Shown here one piece after another: positions 2,895 through 64,000 of a stretch of 64,000 nt of DNA. The notes under the pieces are model-generated. The model saw only the letters and a program-made list of their open reading frames with translations, was not told where the DNA came from and searched no databases. The DNA comes from Streptomyces mobaraensis NBRC 13819 = DSM 40847 (GTDB lineage: Bacteria; Actinomycetota; Actinomycetes; Streptomycetales; Streptomycetaceae): positions 2,790,001 to 2,854,000 of the forward strand of contig NZ_CP072827.1 of the NCBI RefSeq assembly GCF_017916255.1, in the 5' to 3' direction. Made by a program: the position numbers and the translations under genes. The stretch's first letter is position 1; every line of letters begins with the position of its first letter.

Positions 2895-3215
2895 TCAGTG
2901 CCCCGACGTCGCCTTGAGACCGACCACGGCCACCAGCAGCAGGACGACGAAGAAGATCCGGGCCGCGCCGGCCGGCTCGCCCAGCACCGTCATGCCGAGC
3001 ACGGCGGCGCCCGCCGCGCCGATGCCGACCCACACGCCGTAGGCCGTGCCGATGGGCAGCGTCCGGGCGGCCCGCGACAGCAGCAGCATGCTGGCCGCGA
3101 TCCCCGCGACGGTGAGGACGCTCGGCCAGAGCCGGGTGAAGCCGTCGGTGTACTTCATGCCGACGGACCAGCCGACCTCCAGCAGGCCGGCGACGACGAG
3201 CAGGATCCATGCCAT
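2895..3215 (-). CDS. sugE: SMR-family exporter of the SugE/Gdx type (probable guanidinium exporter)
   Basis: A 106-residue, four-helix small multidrug resistance protein. It starts [20 protein letters not shown], with the conserved membrane-embedded Glu (E13) of the SMR family in the first helix. The sequence resembles the SugE/Gdx branch rather than EmrE, because it has the G-W-S-V-G-M-K-Y-T pattern after the Glu. Members of this branch export guanidinium in exchange for protons. The reading is strongly supported by the guanidine-III riboswitch in its leader. The ribosome site GGAGG lies just upstream of the ATG and is the likely target of the switch. It is convergent with the PBP gene. Confidence 0.92.
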
Positions 3216-3249
3216 GACGGCACCTCCGTGGAATCGCTTCTCCAGGGGT

Positions 3250-3291
3250 GCGTCGTCTTGTCCTGACCCGGTACGGCGCGTCTCGTCGGGG
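3250..3291 (-). promoter_or_regulatory. Guanidine-III riboswitch (ykkC-III/PRF class) in the sugE leader
   Basis: Read on the minus strand, the leader contains CGACGAGACGCGCCGUACC followed by GGGUCAGGACAAGACGACGC. This is almost the same, base for base, as the published guanidine-III riboswitch core as I remember it from the Thermobifida structure (GACGAG...GCGCCGUACC...GGUCAGGACAAGACG). The class forms a compact pseudoknot that binds guanidinium. It ends about 35 nt before the sugE start codon, so control of ribosome access is the likely mechanism. The match to the downstream exporter makes the call secure. Confidence 0.9.
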
Positions 3292-3359
3292 TCCTTCCGA
3301 CGGTAGCAAACGGCCGGCCCGGGCAAAGTCCGGCCGCCGGTACGGGTACGACGGCGCCG

Positions 3360-7158: not shown

Positions 7159-7199
7159 CCGATGGCCCGGCTCGCAGTCGACGCGAGCCGGGCCATCGG
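7159..7199 (+). terminator. Terminator after the tRNA-like gene
   Basis: A perfect 16-bp stem, CCGATGGCCCGGCTCG (7159-7174) with CGAGCCGGGCCATCGG (7184-7199), encloses a 9-nt loop and begins 6 bases after the tRNA discriminator base. It also sits 22 bp past the 3' end of the convergent rdgB gene and can act in both directions. Confidence 0.8.
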
Positions 7200-12669: not shown

Positions 12670-12864
12670 GCCCCGGTCCCGCCCTTTCACCGTTTCTTGC
12701 GGGGGCTGCGCCCCCGCACCCCCGAACCGCGCTCCGCGCGGTTGTCCTCAAGCGCCGGACGGGCTGATATTCAGCCCGTCCGGCGCTTGAGGACGAGCGG
12801 CGGAGCCGCGACAAGGGGGTCTGGGGCGCAGCCCCAGGAAACGGCGAAAGGGCGGGACCGGGGC
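12670..12864. repeat. Intergenic palindromic repeat element, copy A
   Basis: A 195-bp imperfect long inverted repeat. The outer arms are GCCCCGGTCCCGCCCTTTC and its complement GAAAGGGCGGGACCGGGGC. The inner arms repeat GTCCTCAAGCGCCGGACGGG and its complement around a short centre. It lies between the convergent nagE2 and MBL-hydrolase genes and has close copies at 28937-29151 and 58315-58503. Confidence 0.85.
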
Positions 12865-59169: not shown

Positions 59170-60603
59170 TCAGGCCGTCGTGGCGGCCGTCACAGCCACT
59201 CCGGCGGCCTTCGCGGCCTCGCGGACGGCGCCGGCGACCGCGCCCGCGACCTTCTCGTTGAAGACGCTCGGGATGATGTAGTTCGCGTTCAGCTCGTCCT
59301 CGGCGACGACGTCGGCGAGGGCGCCGGCGGCGGCCAGCATCATCTCGGTGTTCACGGTGCGCGACTGGGCGTCCAGGAGGCCGCGGAAGACGCCCGGGAA
59401 GACCAGCACGTTGTTGATCTGGTTGGGGAAGTCGGAGCGGCCCGTGGCGACCACGGCGGCCGTCTGACGGGCGATCGCCGGGTCGACCTCGGGGTCGGGG
59501 TTGGCGAGCGCGAAGACGATCGCGCCGTCGGCCATGGCGGCCACGTCCTCGGCGCCGAGGACGTTGGGGGCGGAGACGCCGATGAAGACGTCCGCGCCGC
59601 GCACGGCCTCCTTGAGGGTGCCGGTGATGCCCTCGGGGTTGGTGTTGTCGGCGATCCAGCGCAGCGCCGAGCCCGGGTCGGCGGAGACCAGGTCCTCGCG
59701 GTCGGCGTGCACGACGCCGTGGATGTCGGCGACGACGGCGTGCTTGACGCCGGCGGCGATCAGCAGCTTGAGGATGGCCGTACCGGCCGCGCCGGCGCCG
59801 GACATGACGACGCGTACGTCGCCGATGGACTTGTCGACGACGCGGAGCGCGTTGGTGAGCGCGGCGAGCACGACGATGGCGGTGCCGTGCTGGTCGTCGT
59901 GGAAGACCGGGATGTCGAGGGCCTCGCGCAGCCGGGCCTCGATCTCGAAGCAGCGGGGCGCGGAGATGTCCTCCAGGTTGATGCCCGCGAAGCCGGGGGC
60001 GATGGCCTTGACGATCTCGACGATGGCGTCGGAGTCCTGGGTGTCCAGGCAGATCGGCCAGGCGTCGATGCCGGCGAAGCGCTTGAAGAGGGCCGCCTTG
60101 CCCTCCATGACGGGCAGCGCGGCCTTGGGGCCGATGTTGCCCAGGCCGAGGACCGCGGAGCCGTCGGTGACCACCGCGACGGAGTTGCGCTTGATGGTCA
60201 GGCGGCGGGCGTCCTCGGGGTTCTCGGCGATGGCCATGCAGACGCGGGCGACGCCCGGCGTGTAGACCATGGAGAGGTCGTCGCGGTTGCGGATGGGGTG
60301 CTTGGACGCCATCTCGATCTTGCCGCCGAGGTGCATCAGGAACGTCCGGTCGGAGACCTTGCCGACGCTGACGCCCTCGATGCCGCGCAGCTTCTGCACG
60401 ATCTCGTCGGCGTGGGCGGTGGACGTCGCGGCGACGGTGACGTCGATCCGCAGCTTCTCGTGGCCGGAGGCGGTGACGTCCAGGCCGGTCACCGAGCCGC
60501 CGGAGGACTCCACGGCCGTGGTGAGCTGGCTGACCGCGGTACCGCCGGCGGGCACCTCCAGTCGGACCGTCATCGAGTACGAGACGCTAGGCGCCGTTGC
60601 CAT
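59170..60603 (-). CDS. NAD(P)-dependent malic enzyme with an N-terminal ACT-like domain
   Basis: A 477-residue enzyme that decarboxylates malate to pyruvate. Residues 10-90 are an ACT-like regulatory domain ([40 protein letters not shown]). The catalytic part has [20 protein letters not shown] (catalytic Tyr), [28 protein letters not shown] (metal ligands) and the nucleotide-binding loop [10 protein letters not shown]. An ACT domain suggests amino-acid feedback control. The enzyme supplies NADPH or pyruvate. The start ATG 60603 has AGGGGAAAG upstream. Confidence 0.94.
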
Positions 60604-60880
60604 GGCCGCTTTCCCCTGCTTTCGCTGATTGCGTTGTTCCGCGCGCCCGGGTGTGCGGTCCGGCCGGAGGCCGTCCCACGCCGGGCGACGTCCGATCGTC
60701 GCACCTACCGGCCGGTAGACGGTAACCAGCACCGTCTTTCCGGAAGGTGGGTTTCACCATATGAGAGCGCTCGAGCCGCCCACCTGGGCGGATCCCGCCT
60801 TCCCATCATGCGCCGCCCCTGTTAAACCGCAGGCAAAGCCCGCACGGACGCGACCGCACACGACTGAACACGACCGAAGA
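60604..60880. other. Intergenic part between malic enzyme and the small-RNA locus
   Basis: Upstream region of malic enzyme, no gene. It contains a tandem of ACACGAC-like hexamers (60855-60880: CACACGACTGAACACGACC). These lie just beyond the terminator hairpin of the small RNA. Confidence 0.4.
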
Positions 60881-61028
60881 CGAACGGGCGGTTCCCTCCG
60901 AGGATTCGGAGGGAACCGCCCGTTCGCGGAAGGTTCAGCGGCACCGACCCGCCATGCTCGCCTCGCGGCAAGTGGTCGCTCGAAGCGACTAAGGTTGGGC
61001 CCGGGGGCTTGGATCGAGCCGGTGCCGT
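60881..61028 (-). ncRNA. Small structured RNA candidate, about 145 nt
   Basis: Read on the minus strand. A helix of 8 bp (CGGCACCG 61027-61020 with CGGTGCCG 60946-60939) encloses nested helices: GCTCG/CGAGC, CAAG/CTTG and a hairpin GTCGCT-TCG-AGCGAC. The RNA ends in a perfect 21-bp hairpin (60926-60906 with 60901-60881, loop ATCC), a strong intrinsic-type terminator. A promoter lies directly upstream with its start predicted at the first base of the helix. No ORF of note is present. It resembles no Rfam class I can name. Confidence 0.65.
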
Positions 61029-61032
61029 ATTC

Positions 61033-61060
61033 AGGCTAACAAACGCCTCCCGGAAGTCAT
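61033..61060 (-). promoter_or_regulatory. Promoter of the small RNA
   Basis: On the minus strand, ATGACT (61060-61055) and TAGCCT (61038-61033) are separated by 16 bp. A start about 6-7 bp on (61026-61028) coincides with the 5' end of the predicted helix. Confidence 0.5.
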
Positions 61061-61157
61061 TCCCGGTACCGGGGGTTCCGGCGGGAACCGGCCGGACGAC
61101 CATCCGGGCGGCGTACGGCACTTGCGGTCCCCCGGCCCCGCCAGCCCCCGGACGGCT

Positions 61158-63515
61158 TCAGTCCCGCAGCAGGTCCGGCACCCCGTCCGCGTCCGGCTCG
61201 TCCCGCTCCCCCGCGAGCACCGTCAGCCGCTGCGTGGCGCGCGTCAGGGCCACGTACAGGACGCGCAGCCCGGCCGGGGACTCGTCGGCGATCTCGGCCG
61301 GCGTGACGACGACCGTCGCGTCGTACTCCAGGCCCTTCGCCTCCAGGCTGCCCAGCGCCACCACCCGGTCGCCGAGACCGGCCAGCCACGCCCGCGCCTC
61401 GGCCCGCCGGCCCATGGGCACGACGACGCCGACCGTCCCGTCCACCTCGGCCAGCAGGCGCTCCGCCTCCGCGCGGACGGACGCGGCGAGGTCGGGGCCC
61501 GCGACCGCGAAGCGCGGCTCGACGCCCGTGGAGCGGACCGCGGACGGGGACTCCATCCCCGGCATGGCCAGCGCCAGCACCTTCGACGCCAGTTCGGCGA
61601 TCTCGGCCGGGTTGCGGTAGTTCACGGTGAGCCGGAAGCGACGGCGGGGGCGGGTGCCCAGCGCCTCGTCGCGGGCCGCCGCGGCCTCGTCCGGGTCGGA
61701 CCAGGACGACTGGGCCGCGTCGCCGACGATCGTCCAGGTGGCGTGACGGCCCCGGCGGCCGACCATCCGCCACTGCATCGGCGTCAGGTCCTGCGCCTCG
61801 TCCACGATGACGTGCGCGTAGTCGCGGCGCTCCTGCGCCAGCCGCTCCGCCCGTTCGCGGCGGCTCTCCATCCGCTCGGGCATCAGCTCCTCCAGGCCGG
61901 TGAGCTGGTCGAGCGGGTCGAGCTCGCGGGGTCTGCGGGGCCGGGCCGGGGCGCCGAGCAGCGTCTCCAGCTCGTCCAGCAGCGCCACGTCGTGCACCGA
62001 GAGCGGACCCTTGCCGTCCGCGTCCAGCCGGCCCAGCGAGCGGGCCAGCTGCCGCACCTCGCGCGGGTTGAGCACCCGGCGGGCCCAGCGCCCGAGCCGC
62101 CGCTCGTCGGCGAGCAGCGCCAGCACCTGACGGGGCGCCAGCTCCGGCCACCAGGCCGCCAGGAAGGACAGGAAGTCGTCCTCGGTGGTGATGTCCTCGT
62201 CGAACGCCGCGCGGGCCTCCGCGGCCATCTCCGGGTCGGTGTACCGCTTGGGGCCGCCCGCGCGCGACCACAGGGCGTCGAGCAGCAGCCGGCGCGCGCG
62301 GGGCCGCAGCAGGTTGACGGGGGCCGTGCCGCCCAGCGCGGACTGCCGGATGCGGTCCAGCTCCTCCGGGCCCAGCTCGACGCGGGCGCCGAAGGCGACG
62401 ACGCGCAGCCGGTCGGGGACGGCGCCGCCGCGCGGCACGTCCAGGGCGCCGCGCGTGGCCTTGCGGAGCACCTTGAGCATGCGCGAGGAGCCCTTGATCC
62501 GGGCCACGGCCGGCTCGTCGTAGGTGTCCGCCTCCGCGCCGTCCACCAGCGAACCGAGCGCCCGGATGGCGACCTGGCCCTCCTCGCCCAGCGACGGCAG
62601 CACGCCCTCGGTGTAGGCGACGAGCAGCGGCGTCGGCGAGACGATCAGGATGCCGCCCGCGTACCGTCTGCGGTCCTGGTACAGCAGGTAGGCGGCACGG
62701 TGCAGGGCCACCGCGGTCTTGCCGGTCCCCGGGCCGCCCTCGACCTCGGTCACCGAGGCGGCGGGGGCGCGGATCACCAGGTCCTGCTCGGCCTGGATCG
62801 AAGAAACGATGTCCCTCATGGTGTGGCTGCGGGCCTGGCCGAGCGCGGCCATCAGGGCGCCGTCGCCGACCACCGGCAGCGCGGCGCCGTCCAGGGTCGC
62901 CCGCAGCTCCGGGCGGAGCAGGTCGTCCTCGACGCCGAGCACCCGGCGGCCCTTGGAGCGGATCACCCGGCGGCGCACCACACGGCCCGGCGCCACCGGC
63001 GTCGACCGGTAGAAGGGCGCGGCGGCGGGCGCCCGCCAGTCGATGACGAGCGGCGAGTAGTCGGCGTCCAGGACGCCGATGCGGCCGATGTGCAGCGTCT
63101 CGGCGATCTCCGCGCGGTCGTCGCGGACGGCGTCGTCCGCGGGCTCGACGGAGGTGTACGCGCCGTCGGGCCCCTTCTTGCCGTCCTTGCCGCGCAGCAG
63201 GTCGATGCGGCCGAAGAGGAAGTCCTCGAACTCGCTGTTCAGCCGGTTGAGGTGGACCCCGGCGCGGAACACCTGGGCGTCCCGTTCGGCGAGCGCCCCC
63301 GGCGTCCCCACCTGGCCGCGCTTGGCGGCGTCGTCCATGAGGAACTCGGCCTCGTGGATCTTCTCCTCGAGGCGCCGGTACACCCGGTCCAGATGGTGCT
63401 GCTCGGCACCGATCTCTCGGTCACGGATCCCGTCCGGATGCGTGGTTCCCCCACCGTTCCCGGCGTTCTGCGGATCCGTCGCCACCTGCGCGCGTGTGGC
63501 GTTCTGCGCGGCCAC
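61158..63515 (-). CDS. HelD-like SF1 helicase
   Basis: A 785-residue UvrD/Rep-type helicase. Its N-terminal coiled-coil arm (EQHHLDRVYRRLEEKIHEAE) and YIGRIG-like IGRIGVLDADYSPLVIDW region are typical of HelD proteins, which remove stalled RNA polymerase. The helicase core has Walker A GGPGTGKTAVALH, motif II DEAQDLTPMQWRM, motif III VGDAAQSSWSDPD and motif VI VALTRATQRL. I chose GTG 63515, where AAGGGGG lies 8 nt upstream. Some Streptomyces relatives (HelR) protect polymerase from rifamycins; I saw no rifamycin-associated element upstream. Confidence 0.88.
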   Translation of the reverse strand: MAAQNATRAQVATDPQNAGNGGGTTHPDGIRDREIGAEQHHLDRVYRRLEEKIHEAEFLMDDAAKRGQVGTPGALAERDAQVFRAGVHLNRLNSEFEDFLFGRIDLLRGKDGKKGPDGAYTSVEPADDAVRDDRAEIAETLHIGRIGVLDADYSPLVIDWRAPAAAPFYRSTPVAPGRVVRRRVIRSKGRRVLGVEDDLLRPELRATLDGAALPVVGDGALMAALGQARSHTMRDIVSSIQAEQDLVIRAPAASVTEVEGGPGTGKTAVALHRAAYLLYQDRRRYAGGILIVSPTPLLVAYTEGVLPSLGEEGQVAIRALGSLVDGAEADTYDEPAVARIKGSSRMLKVLRKATRGALDVPRGGAVPDRLRVVAFGARVELGPEELDRIRQSALGGTAPVNLLRPRARRLLLDALWSRAGGPKRYTDPEMAAEARAAFDEDITTEDDFLSFLAAWWPELAPRQVLALLADERRLGRWARRVLNPREVRQLARSLGRLDADGKGPLSVHDVALLDELETLLGAPARPRRPRELDPLDQLTGLEELMPERMESRRERAERLAQERRDYAHVIVDEAQDLTPMQWRMVGRRGRHATWTIVGDAAQSSWSDPDEAAAARDEALGTRPRRRFRLTVNYRNPAEIAELASKVLALAMPGMESPSAVRSTGVEPRFAVAGPDLAASVRAEAERLLAEVDGTVGVVVPMGRRAEARAWLAGLGDRVVALGSLEAKGLEYDATVVVTPAEIADESPAGLRVLYVALTRATQRLTVLAGERDEPDADGVPDLLRD

Positions 63516-63583
63516 CCAGGCCCCCTTCTGTGTGCGTAGGGCAGCCTTCAACCGTACGCGAACTGGGGTACCTAGCGCACCTG

Positions 63584-64000
63584 TCAGGACATGAGAGGTT
63601 TGGCACGGTCGGTCACGGCTTGACGGGGCTGCGGTGACGGCCTGACGTCCGCGCCGCCCGGTCCGTTCGCGGACTTTCCGGCGCTCCCGCCGGCCCCTTG
63701 GGACCCGTCCTCCCCTTGCGTTCCCTCGCCGTTCATCGCCCGGCGGCGGTGCCGGGCCACCCGCTCCCGGTTGCCGCACACCTCGCTGGAACACCAACGG
63801 CGCCGCCGGCCCCGGGAGGTGTCCAGATAGAGGAGGGTGCAGCTCTCGCCCTCGCACTGGCGCAGCAGACCGCGGACCGCCGGGTCGGTGAGGAGTTCGA
63901 CCGCGTCCCGGGCCACCAGCGACACCAGCGCCGCGCAGTCCGGCGGGGCGGCGACGGTACGGACGAGAGCGCCGTCGGCGCCCCGGACGGCCCGCGGGGC
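63584..64000 (-). CDS. CGNR zinc-finger domain protein, 5' end beyond the window
   Basis: The frame is open from base 64000 to the stop at 63584-63586. The visible C-terminal 138 codons contain the CGNR zinc finger: GESCTLLYLDTSRGRRRRWC followed by SSEVCGNRERVARHRRR, with the Cys ligands and the CGNR motif itself. These proteins combine an N-terminal ABATE domain with the finger and are thought to be stress-induced regulators. A Gly/Ser/Pro-rich tail of about 45 residues follows. The start lies outside the window. Confidence 0.85.
   Translation of the reverse strand, partial: APRAVRGADGALVRTVAAPPDCAALVSLVARDAVELLTDPAVRGLLRQCEGESCTLLYLDTSRGRRRRWCSSEVCGNRERVARHRRRAMNGEGTQGEDGSQGAGGSAGKSANGPGGADVRPSPQPRQAVTDRAKPLMS

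Follow-up and report, generated by a model that had tools for sequence, protein, structure and literature searches.

A class-wide actinobacterial small-RNA family with a four-way-junction fold and a sigma-R/sigma-H-type promoter in many of its copies

On comparative grounds, the minus strand of the gap between the malic enzyme and HelD genes of Streptomyces mobaraensis almost certainly carries a small-RNA gene belonging to a family that extends across a whole class of Actinobacteria. Comparison of its relatives points to one fold, to the transcribed strand, to independence from neighboring genes and, in most Streptomycetaceae copies, to a sigma-R/sigma-H-type promoter laid over a housekeeping -10 element. 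No family in Rfam 15 matches it. Taken as a whole, the RNA is likely to be best explained as a trans-acting, structured small RNA with a stress-type promoter and a possible protein partner. Judging from the portions of the literature consulted, what is new here is probably the class-wide family with its fold and its sigma-R/sigma-H-type promoter; already known is, probably, its S. coelicolor member scr2952 as an expressed sRNA.

A structured RNA and its relatives

The window, by which we mean the whole 64,000-nucleotide stretch analyzed (contig NZ_CP072827.1, positions 2,790,001 to 2,854,000), has two relevant ORFs on its minus strand: that at 59170-60603 encodes a malic enzyme, and that at 61158-63857 a HelD-type RNA polymerase recycling ATPase. 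The gene-free gap of 554 bp described in an earlier sequence-only reading is found at exactly that length between these two ORFs. Among the named close relatives is S. huiliensis (HelD 98%, malic enzyme 99%). Read from its first start, the HelD ORF has 899 aa versus approximately 760 to 850 in close relatives, and its true start probably lies further inside the ORF. Between the RNA and the malic enzyme gene, there is also a perfect palindrome, CTACCGGCCGGTAG (window 60705-60718), with similar letters recurring, by eye, in other Streptomyces gaps; it perhaps serves the malic enzyme gene as an operator or as a promoter. In the order of the minus strand, the gap holds a promoter, an 89-nt RNA with a four-way junction and a perfect 21-bp hairpin, with the following parts:

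61059..61064, minus strand: -35 element of the sigma-R type, GGGAAT
61038..61040, minus strand: -10 element of the sigma-R type, GTT, 18 nt from the GGAAT
61033..61041, minus strand: extended -10 element of the housekeeping type (TAnnnT), TGTTAGCCT, overlapping the sigma-R-type -10 element
60940..61028, minus strand: conserved RNA core of 89 nt, four-way junction, with a predicted 5' end near 61027
61015..61026, minus strand: 5' strand of helix P1, 12 bp; relatives show two-sided changes at 12 of 12 pairs; 96.2% of cells paired
60940..60951, minus strand: 3' strand of P1; covariation in the wide alignment (98 distinct rows)
60999..61008, minus strand: P2 and its loop, GCCCCCGGGC, a CCCCGGG-type segment; the weakest helix (80.3% of cells paired), the segment nearly invariant
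60990..60998, minus strand: unpaired P2-P3 linker, CCAACCTTA; 7 of 9 columns invariant in Streptomyces/Kitasatospora, second half variable elsewhere
60975..60989, minus strand: P3 hairpin, GTCGCTTCGAGCGAC; 96.3% paired, with G-C/C-G and U-A/C-G swaps
60957..60972, minus strand: P4 hairpin with a GNGA (GNRA-type) tetraloop; GCC-GNGA-GGC nearly invariant across families, outer pairs weak
60881..60926, minus strand: perfect 21-bp hairpin, presumed terminator without a T run; strong downstream hairpins in Streptomycetaceae copies

The four-way junction is formed by P1 (12 bp, a 2-nt bulge and 3 more bp), P2, P3 and P4. The window copy has an extra outer P1 pair (61027-60939), and the structured stretch including this outermost pair runs from 61027 to 60939. 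The sequence-only reading had seen an 8-bp helix enclosing three inner helices and had judged the arrangement hard to get by chance. That helix is indeed perfect (CGGCACCG/CGGTGCCG, 61027-61020/60946-60939) and proves to be the outer part of the longer P1, the inner helices are present as P2, P3 and P4, and a 162-nt transcript model folds at -95.6 kcal/mol (z -7.4), a value as low as which was reached by 0 of 200 shuffles.

Two alignments bear on this fold. Among 38 distinct Streptomyces/Kitasatospora cores (identical sequences removed), the mean column identity is 96%, and 1,140 of 1,140 pair cells hold standard pairs, with changes on both sides at three pairs, including a G-C to C-G replacement in P3 in five sequences. 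The wide alignment, made with a second covariance model, contains 101 matches (98 distinct rows) from 100 sources, namely, 9 Streptomycetaceae loci, 40 and 44 chromosomal loci outside this family and 7 plasmid stretches. The outside chromosomal loci were taken from the better-scoring part of the class match list, 100 being fetched (40 and then 60) and 44 of the later 60 taken in; a further 16 matches from named genomes were aligned separately and enter none of the counts. This wide alignment was fitted to its model, so that its counts lean toward that model, and shuffled and slid versions still fall far off: 91.5% of cells pair versus 78.3% after shuffling, both partners have changed at 22 of 30 pairs, such two-sided changes occupy 382 cells versus 132 after shuffling, and the covariation score is 0.390 versus 0.146 for shuffles and at most 0.084 with partners slid. 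By these measures, support is good for P1, for P3 and for the inner pairs of P4, and weaker for P2; the outer P4 pairs are often not formed as aligned. Compensatory changes in relatives, whose absence the earlier reading had named as a ground for refuting the RNA, are present in both the 38-row and the 98-row alignments.

The minus strand was taken as the RNA strand because G-U pairs break on the complement: in the wide set, 2,658 of 2,907 pair cells work on the minus strand versus 2,505 on the complement, and a U-G pair occupies columns 59-70 in 38 of 38 rows of the narrower set. Conservation, fold and covariation together lend strong support to the minus-strand small-RNA gene that the earlier reading had proposed.

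A DNA search with a 201-base query matched the core in 293 of 295 Streptomyces genomes, and 25 of 26 Streptomycetaceae malic-enzyme loci carry it, the lone miss being a locus cut by a contig end before the gap. Covariance model searches with strict filters, whose match counts are hence lower bounds, retrieved the RNA from 213 of the 394 class genomes searched (E<=0.01; 40 of the 213 being Streptomyces) and from 68 of 137 genera, and at E<=0.001 in 30 of 396 genomes of the phylum, all 30 of which fall within the same class. The listed class-wide matches span the whole model. Eighteen of 27 named genomes match at E<=0.01; the nine others, one of them a 0.9-Mb partial genome, have no match. The matching ones come from Kitasatospora, Nocardioides (two), Nostocoides, Cellulosimicrobium, Isoptericola, Arthrobacter, Microbacterium, Brevibacterium, Actinomyces, Actinotalea, Micromonospora, Salinispora, Actinoplanes, Actinomadura (two), Sphaerisporangium and Saccharomonospora (the last weak, E 0.004). 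A longer form of 112 to 119 nt, with an extra P3 arm bearing GGAAUACCGUUCGGCUGGAGCC-like letters, occurs in Micromonospora, Actinoplanes, Salinispora, Sphaerisporangium, Actinomadura and Saccharomonospora (loci L269-L276). Separately, one Streptomyces genome carries the normal copy and also a weaker match of greater length (111 nt, 43.5 bits, G132:C2:187208-187318).

The letters that hardly vary from family to family are those of a CCC(C/G)GG-type segment with a CCCAA-like strand after it, of P3 (GYCGCUNCGAGCGRC) and, at the tip of P4, of GCC-GNGA-GGC. Such a pattern could be read as that of a small RNA whose conserved C-rich strand pairs with mRNAs and silences them, a possibility to which we give limited credence. 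The CCCCGGG-N-CCCAA-like stretch is nearly invariant and largely unpaired, and C-rich loops of other bacterial sRNAs have been discussed as target binding (PMC3765725). However, the complement of the invariant 18-nt strand is not enriched in the RNA's own genome, where a search with this one pattern, allowing up to 3 mismatches, gave 25 matches (one of them the gene itself) versus 23 for a backwards control, and the conservation extends to the helices, which is more than a seed needs. Because the helices and the unpaired segments are rigid and the complement of the conserved strand is no commoner than the control, we favor a protein or ribonucleoprotein partner over one fixed mRNA target, a preference that we hold at about even odds. 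The self-dimer energy of the core was also computed and was not informative.

Promoter and 3' end

The sequence-only reading had posited a consensus-like promoter upstream of the RNA. A generic sigma-70 scan of 60500-61300 came back blank, but comparison reveals GGGAAT (61064-61059) and GTT (61040-61038, within TGTTAGCCT) in the arrangement GGAAT-N18-GTT, set over the extended -10 element. The sigma-R consensus in Streptomyces is reported as GGAAT-N18-19-GTT (PMC9205884), sigma-H and sigma-E of Corynebacterium have a consensus of the same type (PMC10012870), and that of SigH of Mycobacterium tuberculosis is GGAAYR-N17-GTT (PMC4803200). In C. glutamicum, SigH-type promoters are described at 44 starts, and the portion of that account consulted names no RNA of the window type (PMC4046766); the term sRNA is absent from the main texts of PMC9205884, PMC4921905 and PMC4803200.

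Across the wide alignment, GGAAY-N17..19-GTT occurs within 75 nt upstream of 58 of 101 copies versus 13 of 10,984 control windows from the same loci, making it approximately 480 times commoner upstream of the RNA than in the controls. The spacer is 18 nt in 48 of the 58, and the distance is clustered, with 47 of 58 motifs lying 4 to 11 nt from the core; 43 of 101 copies lack the strict motif. In 82 distinct Streptomycetaceae loci (the malic-enzyme set, the 30 best matches of the DNA search and the 30 best of the class search, identical ones counted once), the stricter GGAAY-N18/19-GTT precedes 66, and all 82 have GT(T)TAnnnT. When GGAAG is also allowed, the 101 upstream stretches divide into 28 with the sigma-R type alone, 31 with both, 33 with TAnnnT alone and 9 with neither, the corresponding controls being 14 and 144 of 9,357 windows. 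All seven plasmid copies have the sigma-R type alone. The promoter class appears, from these motifs, to differ between copies, with the two kinds overlapping in most Streptomycetaceae. It is likely, on this motif evidence, that most copies carrying the motif are under sigma-R-type control; judged by the same motifs, such control is not universal, given the 43 of 101 copies without the strict motif and the 33 with TAnnnT alone. Copies with GGAAC could also answer to sigma-E-like factors, given the Corynebacterium consensus (PMC10012870). Two further arrangements were observed. In one locus, two tandem RNA copies each have their own GGAAY-N18-GTT (L175:2819-2906 and 3001-3088), and in one family (L154, L156 and L159), an extra 5' hairpin is present and the sigma-R-type promoter is shifted upstream by approximately the length of that hairpin.

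That the RNA is simply expressed by the housekeeping sigma factor (sigma-A/HrdB), with GGAAY-GTT as an incidental resemblance, seems unlikely. It would agree with the rightly placed TAnnnT in every one of the 82 Streptomycetaceae copies and with the 33 copies that have it alone, as well as with the report that HrdB governs 75 of 105 known sRNA genes (PMC6344877). An incidental motif would nevertheless be expected neither to exceed controls by the margin given above nor to cluster at a fixed distance from the core, and it would not account for the 28 copies, including all of the plasmid ones, in which the sigma-R type occurs without TAnnnT.

At the other end, the perfect 21-bp hairpin that the sequence-only reading had called a terminator is real, with arms at 60881-60901 and 60906-60926 and a loop of 4, but a generic terminator scan of 60500-61300 gave none, there is no T run, and the label rests on comparison. 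It is the second-longest perfect hairpin (loop 3-10) in the 64 kb; the longest, of 24 bp, lies at 12744-12794, and another, of 17 bp, lies at 7159-7199. In the 110 nt downstream of the 82 Streptomycetaceae loci, the best hairpin has a median energy of -36.5 kcal/mol versus -24.1 in 164 control windows, 3% of which reach the Streptomycetaceae median. For 91 other copies, in 80-nt windows, the median is -24.3 versus -22.0 in controls, 32% of which are as strong; single copies outside Streptomycetaceae have clear downstream hairpins by eye, whereas the set as a whole is not separated. By this comparison, a terminator-like hairpin is a feature of the Streptomycetaceae copies.

Neighboring genes

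The RNA is an independent gene, as judged by its diverse neighbors, its copies on Rhodococcus plasmids and its reversed orientation in some Streptomycetaceae loci. It is codirectional with the malic enzyme gene in 21 of 25 Streptomycetaceae loci and antiparallel to it in 4 of 25 (three from Kitasatospora and one from Streptomyces), with the core and the -10 element intact. In 54 malic-enzyme loci of other taxa, covered up to 3 kb on each side, no match was found (best E 0.45). Outside Streptomycetaceae, the copies examined adjoin unrelated genes, and a Pfam tally of 79 flanking proteins from 42 loci (flanking ORFs of at least 110 aa) found no family in more than 3 of the 79; HelD is a neighbor only in Streptomycetaceae among the loci examined. 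The malic enzyme and the helicase, which the earlier reading had put forward as targets, are not supported as cis targets by these neighborhoods.

In a plasmid collection, 35 records have a DNA match, all 35 from Rhodococcus, and each of 7 Rhodococcus plasmids searched whole carries one to five RNA copies. Of 7 annotated Rhodococcus plasmid stretches, 3 have an Lsr2 gene beside the RNA copy (L192, L194 and L196), and an integration host factor gene (mihF) adjoins the copy in 2 of them. In what is, by its neighbor protein, a Rhodococcus relative, the RNA is followed after 73 bases by a tRNA gene with the same orientation (L174:3001-3233). A phage collection gave 0 DNA matches and viral contigs gave 0 exact matches to one pattern, and a phage origin was rejected on these results.

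A riboswitch or other cis-acting leader belonging to the malic enzyme gene, with the 21-bp hairpin as its attenuator, would fit the upstream, codirectional position in most Streptomycetaceae loci and the aptamer-like conservation followed by a hairpin. Such an element should always lie upstream of and codirectional with its gene, and the four antiparallel loci with intact core and -10 element, the 54 malic-enzyme loci of other taxa without the RNA and the copies beside unrelated genes and on plasmids largely refute this reading, leaving it very improbable. A conserved short ORF in place of an RNA is more improbable still and was rejected by eye, since, although a reading frame beginning at a GTG runs across the core in some Streptomyces rows, the GTG is missing in at least 14 of 38 rows, 3 of 38 rows have a one-base deletion, and the changes are compensatory, with pairs kept.

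Relation to known RNAs and proposed action

The sequence-only reading had mentioned small RNAs reported near this place in S. coelicolor, and scr2952 bears this out if a naming rule applies. According to PMC8388888, it is one of 11 S. coelicolor sRNAs with confirmed expression found by Vockenhuber et al. in 2011; PMC8388888 also describes it as conserved in over half of the tested Streptomyces and states that all eleven sRNAs are in Rfam. SCO2951 is malic enzyme (PMC7494193) and SCO2952 is HelD (PMC8655204); further, PMC3765725 numbers its new sRNAs by the right-flanking gene, a rule that the names scr3558, scr3559 and scr4677 fit. These two gene identities and this rule make it probable that scr2952 occupies the homologous gap and probable that it is the same RNA, the S. 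coelicolor member of the family by position, provided that a rule stated in PMC3765725 for its own sRNAs extends to it. On that condition, scr2952 would resemble the window RNA in occupying the malic enzyme-HelD gap, and scr2952 is expressed. It was, on the other hand, published as being in Rfam (PMC8388888), whereas no Rfam model passes its cutoff on the window RNA. The mismatch would be explained if scr2952 is outside this Rfam release, if its model represents something different, or if scr2952 and the window RNA are distinct. RF02831 and RF02832 correspond to Scr2736 and Scr5676, both of which lie elsewhere in this genome.

In Rfam 15, no family scored above its gathering cutoff on the window RNA or on 20 outside loci, and a search of the window RNA up to E 10 gave only matches below cutoff. 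Elsewhere in the window, Rfam recognizes a Guanidine-III riboswitch (3247-3312, minus strand; RF01763, 52.1 bits). The 6C RNA (RF01066) is an actinobacterial sRNA with C-rich unpaired stretches, features that the window RNA shares, but it scores 22.9 bits versus a cutoff of 47 (E 0.99), mostly on the terminator hairpin. Scr3202 (RF02833), a Streptomyces sRNA family from the same survey as scr2952, likewise scores mostly on that hairpin (25.3 bits versus a cutoff of 52, E 0.2). Ms1/6S-like RNA (RF02566; scr3559) is, as is the window RNA, a structured actinobacterial sRNA; Ms1 acts on RNA polymerase, and the window RNA adjoins the HelD gene in Streptomycetaceae. Its model gives 17.6 bits versus a cutoff of 162 on the window RNA, and 6S-like RNAs form a long bubbled hairpin in contrast to the four-way junction seen here. 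Membership in 6C, Ms1 or Scr3202 was rejected, all scores being below the Rfam cutoffs.

Stress-sigma sRNAs of other bacteria are free-standing genes with their own stress sigma promoter, in which they resemble the window RNA, while the structure of the latter is far more rigidly conserved. Within the S. coelicolor sigma-R regulon, tmRNA (ssrA) is an RNA gene (PMC4921905) and hence a regulon mate in kind, but it is an unrelated RNA, and no Rfam tmRNA match was found on the window RNA. Besides tmRNA, no RNA is described for the thiol-stress regulon in the consulted portions of the papers listed. Among the papers listed, no title or abstract opening dealt with a stress-sigma sRNA of this sort or with a class-wide family; an earlier description is possible. 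A literature text search for the core letters returned 0 papers.

Sigma-R is freed from its anti-sigma factor by thiol oxidation and is raised by translation-blocking antibiotics (PMC4921905). On the basis of the promoter comparison, RNA polymerase with sigma-R, together with the housekeeping sigma factor, would start transcription near 61027, the housekeeping start at the same place giving a basal RNA level, and transcription would stop after the 21-bp hairpin, yielding an RNA of approximately 150 nt. Its level would be expected to rise in thiol-oxidative or antibiotic stress, and it would act in trans because it has no fixed neighbor. More tentatively, the rigid four-way junction, the CCCCGGG-N-CCCAA-like strand and the GNRA-capped P4 may form a surface to which a conserved protein or ribonucleoprotein binds, and the protein-bound RNA might then retune gene expression during stress. 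Going further, we offer as a speculative possibility that the thiol-stress response of actinobacteria has, in addition to tmRNA, another RNA arm in this RNA. It would be ancient and class-wide, made by RNA polymerase with sigma-R/sigma-H and carried by plasmids too, and its junction would, in oxidative and antibiotic stress, bind a core gene expression protein or the ribosome in the manner of 6S RNA or tmRNA and not as an ordinary antisense sRNA.

To our knowledge, conservation that reaches well past a single genus is uncommon among actinobacterial small RNAs. Here, one RNA family keeps one fold across a class, with a stress-type promoter in over half of the examined copies. If scr2952 is the same RNA, it gains a structure, a family and a candidate regulator, and the family offers a direct handle on whether the thiol-stress regulon has an RNA arm.
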